Shown in pieces: positions 21,648-41,172 of a stretch of 64,000 bases of DNA. How positions within the stretch are numbered: the stretch's first letter is position 1; every line of letters begins with the position of its first letter. The stretch is from Parazoarcus communis. GTDB taxonomy: Bacteria; Pseudomonadota; Gammaproteobacteria; Burkholderiales; Rhodocyclaceae. Under the pieces are notes generated by a model, which was not told the origin of the DNA, did not search any database, and saw nothing but the letters and a program-made list of their open reading frames with translations. The stretch is taken from contig NZ_CP022187.1 in NCBI RefSeq assembly GCF_003111645.1, positions 2,604,001 to 2,668,000 on the forward strand. Reading direction: 5' to 3'. Position numbers and translations under genes: made by a program.

Positions 21648-21717
21648 TTGCTTGTTGCTTGTTGCTTGTTGCTTGTTGCTTGTTGCTTGTTGCTTGTTGC
21701 TTGTTGCTTGTTGCTTG
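21648..21717. repeat. Perfect 10-copy heptamer tandem repeat (TTGCTTG)n
   Basis: Ten uninterrupted copies of TTGCTTG start 5 bases after the cysD stop codon. The unit is not a multiple of three. Perfect identity over 70 bases suggests recent slippage or ongoing copy-number change. It lies inside the cysD-cysN transcript. Confidence 0.97.
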
Positions 21718-21753
21718 TTCTTTGTGAGTTGCGTGTTGTGCCGGGGTAGCGCA

Positions 21754-21825
21754 CTGGGTGTTTGTGCCGAGGGCTGCGGAACTCGCTGCGCTCAGACAGT
21801 CCTCGCCCTCGGCACAAACACCCAG
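21754..21825. repeat. Stem-loop element A (perfect 21-bp arms)
   Basis: Bases 21754-21774 are the exact reverse complement of 21805-21825, with a 30-base loop between them. The loop, read on the minus strand, begins GAGGACTGTCTGAGCGCAGC and ends GAGTTCCGCA. This loop recurs in element B with different arms. It is non-coding, within the cysD-cysN spacer. Confidence 0.9.
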
Positions 21826-21956: not shown

Positions 21957-22056
21957 GCCGGGGATGTGTGAGGCATTCGTGGCGAAGGTGAGGACTGTCC
22001 GAGCCCGCAGGGCGAGTTCCGCAGCCTTCAGAACGAATGCCTCATGCAGCCCCGGC
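21957..22056. repeat. Stem-loop element B with loop related to element A
   Basis: Outer arms GCCGGGG (21957-21963) and CCCCGGC (22050-22056) and inner 12-bp perfect arms (21969-21980 with 22033-22044) enclose bases 21990-22023. That segment matches the element A loop in opposite orientation (GAGGACTGTCCGAGC ... GCGAGTTCCGCA) with a few substitutions and two short insertions. The arms are unrelated to those of element A. Confidence 0.85.
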
Positions 22057-31746: not shown

Positions 31747-31871
31747 GAAATCAGGACTCCGGCAAGCAGGGCTGCAGTGTAGCGCACCGGTGGCCACACA
31801 CCTTCGTTCCACCCGCTTGCCGTAAGGACAGCTTGCAAACACCCATGAACCTCGACTAAGCTCCGCCCCAC

Positions 31872-32080
31872 ATTCGATCCGGGTGCCTTGTCATAAAGTC
31901 TTATGACGGGTGAAACGGGAAGTCCGGTGACGCTGATCGCACATGCGCTCAGCCACTCCGGCGCAGCCCCCGCTGCTGTAAGCCTGACGAATCCGCTGCA
32001 ACACAGATGACCACTGGGTTTCTCCCCGGGAAGGTCGGCGGATGAGGAAGATGGTGAGCCAGAAGACCGGCCCGATCGAG
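31872..32080 (+). ncRNA. Cobalamin riboswitch
   Basis: Characteristic segments appear in order: GGGTGCC (31881-31887), GAAACGGGAAGTCCGGTG, CAGCCCCCGCTGCTGTAA, and the B12 box AGCCAGAAGACCGGCC (32057-32072). The closing stem pairs CGATC (31875-31879) with GATCG (32074-32078). It faces the cbiM-like gene 200 bases downstream and should shut off the whole operon when adenosylcobalamin is plentiful. An expression platform is not obvious by eye. Confidence 0.95.
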
Positions 32081-32279
32081 ATGAAAGAGATGTGAATCCC
32101 GGGGTGAGGGTTCGATCCGACTGCTTGGTCGCGGCCGTATTTTCTTCGTACGCCTCCATGCCAGCCGCATTCGATATTCGTTTTGCGTAGACGTTCGCAC
32201 GTTCATGGACTGCCCATGCGCGCTTTCGCCTGCCTCCCCGGCTTCAGGTCGCCAGCCAAGCACACGAGGGGAGTTCTTC

Positions 32280-37919: not shown

Positions 37920-38751
37920 CATGACTCCCCCCCACCTTCAGGCATCGCAACCTGCCTTACGCTTCGGCCGCCTGATCGGTGTCTCGCTCGGCCCCGGCGA
38001 TCCCGATCTCATCACCCGCCGTGGCTGGGCGGCGCTGCAATCCGGCGCGCGCTGGGCCTACCCGGTCAAACGCGCGGAGGAAAGCTCTTACGCGCTCGGC
38101 ATCGCCCGCCGGGGTGGTCTCGAGATCCCGGCCGATGTCGCCGAACTGGTCTTTCCAATGACGCGCGACGCGACCGCACTGGCCAAGGCGTGGACGCGCG
38201 CCGCCAGCCGCACGGTCGAGTGGCTGGCGAGCGGGCGTGATGTCGCTTTTCTGGTCGAGGGCGATGCCTCCACTTACTCCACCTTCCGCCACCTAGCGCG
38301 CGCAGTGCGCGAACTGGCGCCCGCTGTCACCGTGGAGACCATCCCCGGCGTCAGTTCATTTGCCGCGGCCGCCGCCCGTGCGGATGTGGCGCTGGCCGAG
38401 GAGGACGAGACCTTGGCCATCATCCCCGCCGCCTACGGCGTGCCAGTGATCGATCATCTGCTCGACGAGTTCGACACCCTGGTGCTGATGAAGGTGAAGC
38501 CGCTGCTGGACGAAGTGCTGGACCTGCTCGAACGACGCGGGCTGATCGCCACCAGCTGCTTCATCGAGAAGGTTGGCTCACCCGAGGAGCGGGTGGTGCG
38601 CGACGTCGCCAGTCTGCGCGGCGAGAAGGTGAATTACCTGTCGCTGTTGCTCGTGCAGAACCCGAAGCGCGTGCGCGGAGAACTGCGCCGCGGCTGTCGC
38701 AAGAGATCAGAGGCCTCGTATATCCCTGCAGCAGCAGAGGCCGCCACGTGA
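37912..38751 (+). CDS. cobI: Precorrin-2 / cobalt-precorrin-2 C20-methyltransferase
   Basis: 279 residues from ATG at 37912, with an AGGAGG ribosome-binding site. Motifs: GVSLGPGDPDLITRRGWAAL, LVEGDASTYSTFRHLA, and ETIPGVSSFAAAAARADVALAEEDE, matching CobI/CbiL. It overlaps cobL by 8 bases. Its last codons lie within the left arm of a long palindrome (38734-38963), so the C-terminal SEASYIPAAAEAAT may be element-derived. Confidence 0.93.
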   Translation: MNDMTPPHLQASQPALRFGRLIGVSLGPGDPDLITRRGWAALQSGARWAYPVKRAEESSYALGIARRGGLEIPADVAELVFPMTRDATALAKAWTRAASRTVEWLASGRDVAFLVEGDASTYSTFRHLARAVRELAPAVTVETIPGVSSFAAAAARADVALAEEDETLAIIPAAYGVPVIDHLLDEFDTLVLMKVKPLLDEVLDLLERRGLIATSCFIEKVGSPEERVVRDVASLRGEKVNYLSLLLVQNPKRVRGELRRGCRKRSEASYIPAAAEAAT

Positions 38752-38963
38752 AGCGCGCCGCTGTGGTTGGCGGTCGGGCTGTCGAGAGCGCCGGATCGTC
38801 GGGCGTCTGCGGGGAAACAAGACGGTGCATGTCTGAGTGAGCGTAGCGAGCGAGTTTGCACCGTCGCCCCGCAGACGTTCGACGAGCCGGGAAGCCGAAG
38901 GCCGCGAACGTCTGCCCGACCGACAACCGCAGCGGTACGAGCGCTTCGCGTGGCGGCCTCTGC
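38734..38963. repeat. 230-bp nested imperfect palindrome inside the cobalamin operon
   Basis: Three nested pairs of arms share a centre: 38734-38756 with 38941-38963 (22 of 23 bases), 38761-38778 with 38915-38932 (16 of 18), and 38804-38814/38821-38829 with 38867-38877/38857-38865 (perfect, one bulge). The terminal loop 38830-38857 reads TGTCTGAGTGAGCGTAGCGA followed by GCGAGTTT and resembles the loops of elements A and B near cysN. No ORF is credible within it. Confidence 0.9.
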
Positions 38964-39023
38964 GGGCCACCCCCACCTGGACGTAACGACTTAACAGGAT
39001 CCATATAGAAGAAAGAATCCGCC

Positions 39024-39800
39024 ATGACCCAACACCTCCCCTTCCCCAATAACAAAGTCGCCGTCGTCTCGATCACCCGGCACGGCATTGCGCTCGCCGG
39101 CAAGGTGGTGGCCGCCCTGCCCGGCGCCACCCTGTTCGCGCCGGAGAAATTTCACCGCGAAGCCGAGGCGGCCGCACCGGGTGCCTTTGCCTGCTTCACC
39201 GGCAAGACCGGCGATCAGATTCCCGCACTGTTCGCGGCTTTCGACGGCATCATCTGTATCGTTTCGCTCGGTGCGGTCGTTCGACTCATCGCACCGCATC
39301 TGAAGAACAAGGAGAGCGATCCCGGCATCGTGGTACTCGACGAAGCCGGGCGTTACGCCATCCCCGTACTCTCCGGGCACCTGGGCGGCGCCAACGCACT
39401 GGCCGGCGTGCTTGCGCAGACCCTTGGCGCACAGCAGGTGCTCACCACGGCCTCAGATGCCCGCGAAACCCTCGCGGTCGATCTGCTCGGTCGCGAACTG
39501 GGCTGGACTTTCGAAGCCAGCCATGACGAAATCGTGCGAGCCAGCGCCGCCGTCGTGAACGACGAACCGGTTGCGCTGGTACAGGAAACCGGCAGCACCG
39601 ACTGGTGGACGCGCCACGCCAACGGTCGCAGCGGCAGCCTGCCCGCCAATCTGCACCGCTTCGACCGCCTTGAAGACATCGACCCGGATGCCTTCGGCGC
39701 CGTGCTGTGGGTCAGCAACCGCAGCCTGCCTGACACGCTTGCCGAGCGTTTAAGTGGCAAGAAGGTCATCTACCGCCCCACTGCTGCGAGCGTGCAATGA
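39024..39800 (+). CDS. cbiG: CbiG, N-terminal and central domains (cobalt-precorrin-5A hydrolase, part 1)
   Basis: 258 residues. KVAVVSITRHGIALAGKVVAALPGA and FDGIICIVSLGAVVRLIAPHLKNKESDPGIVVLDEAGRYAIPVLSGHLGGAN are CbiG core motifs, split here for length only. The protein stops where the full-length family continues with a C-terminal domain, which is supplied by the next gene. CbiG opens the delta-lactone and releases acetaldehyde in the anaerobic route. It resumes the operon after the palindrome, 272 bases beyond cobI. Confidence 0.88.
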   Translation: MTQHLPFPNNKVAVVSITRHGIALAGKVVAALPGATLFAPEKFHREAEAAAPGAFACFTGKTGDQIPALFAAFDGIICIVSLGAVVRLIAPHLKNKESDPGIVVLDEAGRYAIPVLSGHLGGANALAGVLAQTLGAQQVLTTASDARETLAVDLLGRELGWTFEASHDEIVRASAAVVNDEPVALVQETGSTDWWTRHANGRSGSLPANLHRFDRLEDIDPDAFGAVLWVSNRSLPDTLAERLSGKKVIYRPTAASVQ

Positions 39801-40192
39801 AAGTCGCACTTGGGCTCGGCTGCGACCGCGGCACTCCGTTCGAAACCCTCGCCCGTGCGGTCAATGAAGCGCTGGCGGCCGCCGGCGTCGGTCTGGAAGC
39901 GGTCAGCGCAGTGGCCAGCATCGACCTCAAGGCAGACGAACCCGGCCTGGCGCTGCTCGCAGCCGTTCACGGCTGGCGCATCGCGTTTCACCCTGCCGCC
40001 CGCCTCGCCGCGATCGCGGTACCCAACCCGTCCGACACCGTGCGTCGCTACACCGGCACGCCCTCGGTCTCGGAAGCCGCCGCGCTGCTCGCGGCCAATG
40101 CGGGCCAGGACGCGCTGCTGGTCGAAAAACACAAGGTGCGCGGCACTGACGGCAAGAACGCCACCATCTCCATCGCAAGGATCACCGAATGA
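39797..40192 (+). CDS. CbiG C-terminal domain / CobE-like protein (part 2)
   Basis: 131 residues, overlapping the previous stop by 4 bases (ATGA). MKVALGLGCDRGTPFETLARAV, SIDLKADEPGLALLA and YTGTPSVSEAAALLA are the CobE/CbiG-C fold. In most anaerobic operons this is fused to CbiG. As a separate gene it resembles CobE. Translational coupling suggests a 1:1 complex with the upstream product. Confidence 0.87.
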   Translation: MKVALGLGCDRGTPFETLARAVNEALAAAGVGLEAVSAVASIDLKADEPGLALLAAVHGWRIAFHPAARLAAIAVPNPSDTVRRYTGTPSVSEAAALLAANAGQDALLVEKHKVRGTDGKNATISIARITE

Positions 40193-41172
40193 ACACGACA
40201 ACTGGCAAGGGCAAGATCATGCTCGTGGGCCTCGGCCCCGGCAGTCACGACCACCTCACCGCGCGTGCGCGCGCCGCCATCGCGGAGGCCGACACCATCA
40301 TCGGCTACGTCACCTATATCAAGCTCGTCGCCGACCTGCTCGAAGGCAAGGAAGTGATCAGAAAGTCGATGACGGAGGAACTTGACCGCGCCATCGAATC
40401 GCTCGCCCGCGCCCGGCAGGGCAAGAAGGTGGCGCTGATCTCCTCGGGCGATGCCGGTGTATATGGCATGGCGGGGCCGACCTTCGAAGTGCTGTTTCAG
40501 GCCGGGTGGACACCCGACTCGGACATCGAGGTCGAGATCATCCCCGGCGCATCCGCACTCAACACCTGCGCAGCGCTGGTCGGCGCCCCGCTCACGCACG
40601 ATTTCTGCGCCATTTCGCTGTCCGATCTGCTTACCCCCTGGGCCACCATTGCGCGCCGCCTCGACGCCGTCGCCTACGCCGATTTCGTGGTCGCCCTCTA
40701 CAACCCCAAGAGCGGTCGCCGCACACGCCAGATCGTCGAAGCCCAGCGCCTGTTCCTGCGCCACCGCCGGCCGGATACCCCGGTGGCGATCGTCAAGTCG
40801 GCCTATCGCCCAAAACAACGCATCGAGTTCACCACACTGGAGAGGATGAGCGAGTGCGACATCGGCATGCTCACCACCGTCCTCATCGGCAACTCAAACA
40901 CCTTCGTGCGCGACGGCCTGATGGTGACGCCACGCGGCTACAGCAACAAGTACGACGTCGCCGATGGCGAGCGCGCCACCCGCAGCGGCGAACAGGCCGG
41001 GCGCTCGCTCAGCACCGGCCTCAATGGCTGGCTGGAATCCCTTCGCATAAGCGATGAAACGCCCGCACAACTGGCAGCGCATTACAGACTTCCGCTCGAT
41101 TACATCATCGCCACGCTTGCCGATCTGCCCCACACTGAGGCCGAGCCCGTCACCGAGGAGGGCCACGCATGA
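40189..41172 (+). CDS. cobJ: Precorrin-3B / cobalt-precorrin-3 C17-methyltransferase (ring contraction)
   Basis: 327 residues. IMLVGLGPGSHDHLTARARAAI, ISSGDAGVYGMAGP and IIPGASALNTCAALVGAPLTHDFC match CobJ/CbiH. The methylase core ends near residue 265; the remaining 60 residues form an extension rich in Glu and Leu without cysteines. It carries out C17 methylation with ring contraction. It overlaps both neighbours by 4 bases, tying it to the CobE-like protein and the ferredoxin-like protein. Confidence 0.92.
   Translation: MNTTTGKGKIMLVGLGPGSHDHLTARARAAIAEADTIIGYVTYIKLVADLLEGKEVIRKSMTEELDRAIESLARARQGKKVALISSGDAGVYGMAGPTFEVLFQAGWTPDSDIEVEIIPGASALNTCAALVGAPLTHDFCAISLSDLLTPWATIARRLDAVAYADFVVALYNPKSGRRTRQIVEAQRLFLRHRRPDTPVAIVKSAYRPKQRIEFTTLERMSECDIGMLTTVLIGNSNTFVRDGLMVTPRGYSNKYDVADGERATRSGEQAGRSLSTGLNGWLESLRISDETPAQLAAHYRLPLDYIIATLADLPHTEAEPVTEEGHA

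Follow-up and report, generated by a model that had tools for sequence, protein, structure and literature searches.

The window, a 64,000-nt stretch of the Parazoarcus communis genome (G000), contains a cobalamin operon in which cobI (identified by TIGR01467) and cbiG (start at 39024) are separated by a spacer of 272 nt. The operon is otherwise tightly packed, as the first-pass annotation had described it: compared to this spacer, the three junctions further down between ORFs are 4-nt overlaps (39797-39800, 40189-40192 and 41169-41172). A cobalamin riboswitch (RF00174, 98.9 bits) lies upstream of the cob genes at 31864-32089. The end of cobI runs into a palindrome of 230 nt (38734-38963) that has the three nested tiers originally reported for it. 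The outermost arms match at 22 of 23 nt, the middle arms (38758-38784/38909-38935) at 85% over 27 nt, and the innermost arms (38791-38814/38867-38890) at 88% over 24 nt. Folded as RNA, the palindrome reaches -176.7 kcal/mol, compared to -119.05 ± 5.03 kcal/mol in 200 shuffles, none of which folded as well (0/200; z -11.46). The left arm indeed ends cobI, with the stop codon TGA at 38749-38751, and it holds five sense codons rather than the seven or so first counted. Three points are new relative to the earlier description: the 3' side carries an asymmetric bulge, two conserved blocks stay unpaired, and these blocks, rather than the arm sequences, are the part that other copies share (Table 1).

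Table 1. Features of the cobI-cbiG element and of its cousins in the cysD-cysN spacer (window positions)
Feature	Position	Strand	Remarks
Outermost left arm	38734..38756	+	last five cobI codons and stop; arm-pair comparison, 22/23 nt
Outer stem, 5' strand	38758..38775	+	varies among loci; pairs with about 38918-38935
Conserved 5' block GGGCTGTCGAGAGCGCC	38776..38792	+	alignment A1
Inner stem, 5' strand (22 nt)	38793..38814	+	variable, covarying
Conserved A-rich 5'-side bulge AAACAAG	38815..38821	+	alignment A1 and structure
Apical stem, 5' strand	38823..38829	+	partner 38857-38863; predicted structure
Terminal module TGTYTGAG-[variable tip]-CGAGTTTG	38830..38858	+	common to other-genus elements and cysD-cysN cousins
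Inner stem, 3' strand	38867..38888	+	covariation, predicted structure
Conserved 3' block GGGAAGCCGAAGGCCGCGAACGTCTGCCC, with small internal hairpin	38889..38917	+	alignment A1 and structure
Outer stem, 3' strand	38918..38935	+	arm pairing, predicted structure
Asymmetric 3'-side bulge TACGA	38936..38940	+	read from sequence
Outermost right arm	38941..38963	+	inverted near-copy of cobI 3' end
Cousin terminal module, cysD-cysN spacer	21779..21798	-	within a different long hairpin
Second cousin terminal module, cysD-cysN spacer	21996..22019	+	forms divergent pair with the 21779-21798 module

The 3'-side bulge has, by eye, a TTACC- or CTACC-like counterpart in the long-armed copies at loci L013, L022 and L028. 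Within 38400-39200, no intrinsic terminator (a GC stem followed by a T run) was found, and neither a promoter-like nor a terminator-like site was found inside the element. One promoter-like match (TTAACA, 16 nt, AAGAAT; 9/12; 0.1 expected in shuffles) lies between the element and cbiG at 38991-39018. The recurrence of the terminal loop in the cysD-cysN spacer was borne out, with one module on each strand. A (TTGCTTG)n tandem repeat at 21650-21720 adjoins this cousin element, and GTTGCC- or GGGGTT-like simple repeats precede several element copies of Luteimonas, Stenotrophomonas and Silvimonas too.

Similarity search with the 230-nt query revealed six related places in G000, one of them partial, and 5, 6, 8 and 10 match rows in the four genus-mates (G001-G004), with self-palindrome and partial rows counted. 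The palindrome is therefore not unique in its genome, and all four genus-mates hold copies, as expected of the repeat family that had been proposed. Among genomes of the same family, G013 and G030 gave one match each (E 6e-31 and 1e-9, respectively). Overall, 10 of 61 genomes matched the query, the weakest over short stretches only. A covariance model built from the genus copies together with those of G013 and G030 (R2) recovered the same six copies in G000 and matched 20 of 250 genomes of the order, 19 of them outside the training set; among good assemblies, 16 of 121 genera matched.

Alignment A1 comprises twenty-five copies, of which 18 have a cut length of exactly 186 nt; it leaves out the duplicates L009, L011 and L036, weaker or contig-end matches, and L006 and L032, which lack the 5' block. 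The latter two represent one locus, in G000 and G002, adjoining an aldehyde dehydrogenase gene, and keep the terminal module and AAACAAG without the GTCGAGAGCGCC block. Throughout A1, the 5' block, the AAACAAG bulge, the terminal module on both sides of its tip and the 3' block are invariant or nearly so. The two stems, of 22 bp (outer, as shown) and about 20 bp (inner), vary in sequence among loci and keep their complementarity. The RNAalifold structure on A1 has 96.4% of cells paired, with double compensatory changes in 48 of 66 pairs. Its covariation score is 0.639, compared to a mean of 0.172 in 500 shuffles (0/500 as high) and to at most 0.127 when the partner is slid by 1-3 columns, the latter control favouring the structure because this was derived from the same sequences.

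Five same-orientation ortholog pairs, summed out of eleven computed and with one member shared by two of them, differ at 0 of 441 block positions and at 26 of 412 stem positions. A sixth pair (L021-L027) is consistent with this (blocks 0/85, stems 9/77). The five more distant or inverted pairs differ at 7, 1, 1, 4 and 2 of 89 block positions and at 26, 19, 31, 23 and 25 of 84 stem positions. As the block columns were defined on an alignment holding these very copies, the contrast between blocks and stems is partly built in. What the copies have in common is the unpaired blocks rather than the arm sequences, and the retention of these blocks in place suggests a resident function beyond what mobility alone explains.

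The mismatches tolerated in the stems are unevenly distributed. Read on the TGTYTGAG strand, the genus stems hold 79 G-T(U) versus 12 A-C mismatches over all cells, and 31 versus 5 when flanked by Watson-Crick pairs and with one habitual wobble column excluded. Taking one copy per ortholog group, with second and later orthologs left out, the count is 36 G-U versus 8 A-C (p 2.5e-5). For 143 distinct elements from other genomes, whose arms were aligned without folding, it is 51 versus 11 (p 2.8e-7, an optimistic value because many of these elements come from the same few genera). An earlier and smaller sample from other genomes had given 3 versus 3 in inner stems and 20 versus 10 in outer stems. 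A cruciform formed by both strands would lack such a bias, which indicates that one defined strand is the folded molecule under selection. Counting against the one-strand case, other mismatches are as common as G-U (35 in the genus set and 83 elsewhere).

Outside the genus, copies share the same order of parts: the outer stem is followed by GCAGCCGAGCATCGCAG, then by a variable stem (about 10 bp), an A-rich bulge on the 5' side and the terminal module, and last comes CGAGAAGCGCAGGGAA, which includes a variable hairpin. Among the named-genome loci L291-L370, many copies have a second variable hairpin downstream, of the type TTTTGGTTACTTTTC...GAAAAGTAAC. The terminal module searched as a bare pattern occurs in 35 of 229 genomes of the class, compared to about 24 genomes, with 1-2 matches each, for a reversed control pattern; the pattern alone is therefore weak evidence, and the full element is stronger. 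Genome G132 nevertheless has 37 pattern matches versus none for the reversed control. A second covariance model (R1), built from 27 copies in nine genomes of taxonomic families other than that of the window, matched 34 of the 229 class genomes at E <= 1e-4, of which 25 were outside its training set. Its single match in G000 is the cobI-cbiG element itself (genome positions 2642788-2642913, E 6.5e-5).

R1 was also applied to loci from the pattern scan, taken among the matches listed in named genomes and viral contigs, and 33 of 37 matched at E <= 0.001. Confirmed carriers among these listed matches include Luteimonas, Stenotrophomonas, Xanthomonas sp., Pseudoxanthomonas, Marinobacterium, Methylophaga, Silvimonas and Zhongshania, and, beyond Gammaproteobacteria, Desulfosarcina and deltaproteobacterial MAGs. 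The four of 37 loci without an R1 match were two in Halorhodospira, one in a Desulfobacterales MAG and one on a viral contig; Halorhodospira, which had matched the pattern, was accordingly dropped as a carrier. Viral contigs gave three matches to the class-type pattern, two of them confirmed by R1, and none to the genus-type pattern. Blastn of plasmids with the cobI-cbiG region and with a G132 copy, and of phages with a G140 copy, returned nothing. In genomes outside the genus, copies lying within 600 nt of each other form 40 inverted pairs (20 "-+" and 20 "+-") versus one tandem pair; the genus copies in the alignment are mostly single. By these model and pattern matches, the family spans many proteobacterial genomes, in the genus, in other Burkholderiales and in further Proteobacteria.

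The cobI-cbiG element is present in G000, G001 and G002. By eye, the corresponding junction is short or overlapping and free of the element in G013, G016, G005 and G022, and no element is seen there in G015, G019 and G045 either, so that absence was recorded in seven genomes outside the genus (six of the same family and G045 of the same order); in G003 and G004, cobI had no good match. In G002, the flanks are collinear (about 93%, plus/plus) but the core of the element between them is inverted (85% over 173 nt, plus/minus). Two further loci show an inverted core: a metX-like one, in G000 relative to G001, where Pfam gives no more than an alpha/beta hydrolase and the gene name is our inference, and a release-factor one, in G001 relative to G000. 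These inversions in place at three loci partly support the earlier idea of a recombination target, although inverted arms alone could explain them.

The same junction also bears on the origin of the arms. In G002, the cobI end GCAGAGGCCGCCACGTGA occurs but no inverted partner accompanies it, so that at this one locus the right outer arm of G000 and G001 resembles the gene end copied in inverted orientation. Since the outer arms include such an inverted copy, of the 3' end of cobI, they were probably formed at the insertion site. At L029:1433-1668 in G001, a remnant copy (a right outer arm and part of the 3' block) adjoins an inverted copy whose outer arms are new, which looks like the rebuilding of an element within another. 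G001 shares all six G000 loci, which indicates that the copies are old, with no sign of recent movement in the genus.

The orientation of the element follows replication. Local GC skew was scored in windows no larger than 20 kb. The skew of the TGTYTGAG strand is negative in 25 of 29 genus copies (p 1e-4); for single copies in other genomes, the count is 32 of 41 (p 4e-4), or 28 of 34 at an absolute skew of at least 0.02. These counts exclude paired copies and L172, L173, L175 and L176, take one of the two copies at L238, and enter a locus with two same-strand copies once; the genus count omits G030 (skew 0.002). The G-rich strand is the leading strand; as judged by local GC skew, the folding strand thus lies on the leading-strand template in the same 25 of 29 and 32 of 41 copies. 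Three of the four exceptions in the genus are the inverted copies at the cobI, metX-like and release-factor loci. The fourth, in G004, shares part of its flank with a concordant G000 locus and may represent a fourth inversion. As orthologous copies are non-independent, one copy per locus (that of G000 where present) was also counted by hand, and 15 of 16 were concordant.

Gene direction fails to explain this polarity, because just 30 of 54 neighbouring genes in the genus share the strand of the element (hand count on heuristic gene calls). The genus copies have ordinary genes on both sides, and their position relative to these is tandem, convergent, divergent or antisense; genes for alanyl-tRNA synthetase, a release factor and a permease are among the unrelated genes close to sister copies. 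Pfam matched 19 of 20 flanking proteins, none of them a transposase. In GC-rich named genomes, the 30 scorable single copies among the matches listed comprise 12 convergent, 9 tandem, 7 antisense to both neighbours and 2 divergent, which amounts to a mild excess (21/30) 3' of a same-strand gene; this count omits 52 paired copies, 31 copies at edges and every locus with a GC content below 55%.

That excess, together with the rarity of divergent positions, would suit an element acting as RNA, whose TGTYTGAG strand is transcribed, either within the mRNA of a neighbour or separately, and whose rod and internal loops bind a protein or ribonuclease. The predominance of G-U over A-C mismatches and the asymmetric, invariant internal loops with their blocks conserved in place point the same way. 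Nevertheless, gene orientation in the genus is mixed by heuristic gene calls, with several copies between divergent genes or antisense to both; the cobI-cbiG element has no promoter-like or terminator-like site of its own; and orientation follows replication, not genes. Nor did Rfam offer a match above threshold: in Rfam 15, no family reached its curated or gathering score, the window copy being searched at the cut-offs, and a search of eight loci at E <= 5 gave five chance-level matches. One of these, sot0042 on L070, overlaps an element at 15.9 bits (cut-off 88, E 3.1). We regard action as RNA as a real possibility, although a distinctly less probable one than a mobile element.

Large quasi-palindromes devoid of function, in which template switching at the fork keeps the arms complementary and strand-biased instability produces the polarity, would account for complementary stems that change together, for inversions in place and for the replication polarity. 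However, template switching should erase unpaired blocks, which every aligned copy has and which show no change in five ortholog pairs, and it predicts equal numbers of G-T and A-C mismatches, where an inequality is seen; we consider this explanation unlikely. A further reading is an RNA processing or attenuation site specific to the cobalamin operon, the first-pass annotation having offered a processing site as a divide between early and late cobalamin genes. The position in the operon, the strong hairpin and the riboswitch upstream would suit it. It is very improbable, however, as sister copies adjoin unrelated genes whatever the orientation, G002 has the core inverted with respect to cobI, and seven relatives outside the genus have no element at the junction.

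The palindrome between cobI and cbiG thus belongs to a broadly distributed, structure-coded and strand-specific element family. The explanation we favour, to which we give about an even chance, is a dispersed, non-autonomous, intergenic mobile element recognised as a folded single strand, like attC or REPIN but neither of them. The mobile part of this reading rests on the dispersed copies, element-free relatives, inverted pairs and replication polarity, and a mobile or REP-like element is the best fit among the three possibilities raised at the outset; counting against it, no mobilising protein was found, nothing points to recent movement in the genus, and the blocks conserved in place suggest a resident function. 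According to this proposal, the TGTYTGAG strand would fold into a rod in which covarying stems alternate with fixed unpaired blocks, and the recognised form would be this folded strand rather than the double helix. Insertion or retention of copies would place the folding strand on the leading-strand template, which is also where the bottom strand of attC lies in chromosomal integrons. The unpaired blocks might be read by a host protein or by a structure-specific recombinase or transposase that tolerates any stem sequence. Folded single-stranded DNA is the active form that we favour, and RNA is its main rival. In IS200/IS605-type insertion, the folding strand is the lagging-strand template, and folding on that template should make the mismatch asymmetry run the opposite way.

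More tentatively, the family could represent an undescribed class of structure-coded DNA elements of Proteobacteria, in which the unpaired blocks of one folded strand are the informative part, the stems can vary freely, being built or rebuilt at each site (as the arm copied from the host gene end would illustrate here), and a protein places or keeps the elements at a fixed fork polarity; we hold this broader proposal to be possible but rather doubtful. A search of open-access literature by sequence strings and topic, with most subscription journals outside its scope, found no description of the family; its three string matches are virus papers sharing one 15-letter string. Repeat finders keyed on sequence easily miss elements that conserve structure but not stem sequence. 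If a structure-specific enzyme does move or read the family, folded single strands would be the substrate of one more such system, whose replication polarity could be tested directly.

Several candidate movers were considered. At E <= 0.001, the Y1 transposase PF01797 was not found in G132 and G140, which hold many copies, nor in G002 and G030, and it was found in 32 of 38 genomes searched, element-bearing or not; the negative result in the copy-rich genomes is inconsistent with a Y1 transposase as the mover. The reverse transcriptase PF00078 was not found in 12 of 21 genomes searched, G000, G132 and G140 among them, and a group II intron or retroelement product was rejected on this ground. 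Integron integrase occurs in 21 of 34 element-bearing and 71 of 195 other genomes (p 0.0075, a value that ignores relatedness and genome size). In G000, its gene lies at C1:3808748-3809692, above the curated cut-off and about 73 kb from one element copy. Given this moderate co-occurrence, with no integrase found in 13 of the 34 element-bearing genomes, it was rejected as sole mover. The ends of attC sites follow the consensus RYYYAAC ... GTTRRRY of the R'' and R' boxes, and these boxes have no match on either strand of 38701-38990. sRNA-Xcc1, which is integron-borne, was dropped as a possible identity, as no match was found.

Compared to the structured RNAs of Rfam, the element likewise has covarying stems and invariant internal loops, but it belongs to no family at the gathering score. 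It also resembles the REP, BIME and REPIN sequences that are associated with RAYT (Y1) transposases, as set out in the passages of PMC2817692 and PMC3116915 on these repeats, in being dispersed, intergenic, palindromic, predicted to form hairpins, apparently non-autonomous and often arranged as inverted pairs. It differs from REPs and REPINs in its larger size (a core of about 140-150 nt), its multiple loops, stem sequences that are unconserved among loci, and copy-rich genomes (G132 and G140) in which the cognate transposase was not found; by the features tested, it is not a REP. Judged by eye, it also has no GTAG- or CGTC-type tag, and its blocks are unlike the REPs given in those passages of PMC2817692. 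The attC sites of integrons, in the portions of PMC2727003 and PMC11023631 devoted to them, are recognised by structure, not by sequence, on one strand only, through unpaired features and a variable tip, and in chromosomal integrons their folding strand lies on the leading-strand template. Unlike attC sites, the element is without R-box ends, the copies examined are single or paired beside ordinary genes, and not all genomes that bear it yielded an integrase. The two share a structure on one strand, unpaired features, a variable tip, and a folding strand on the leading-strand template.
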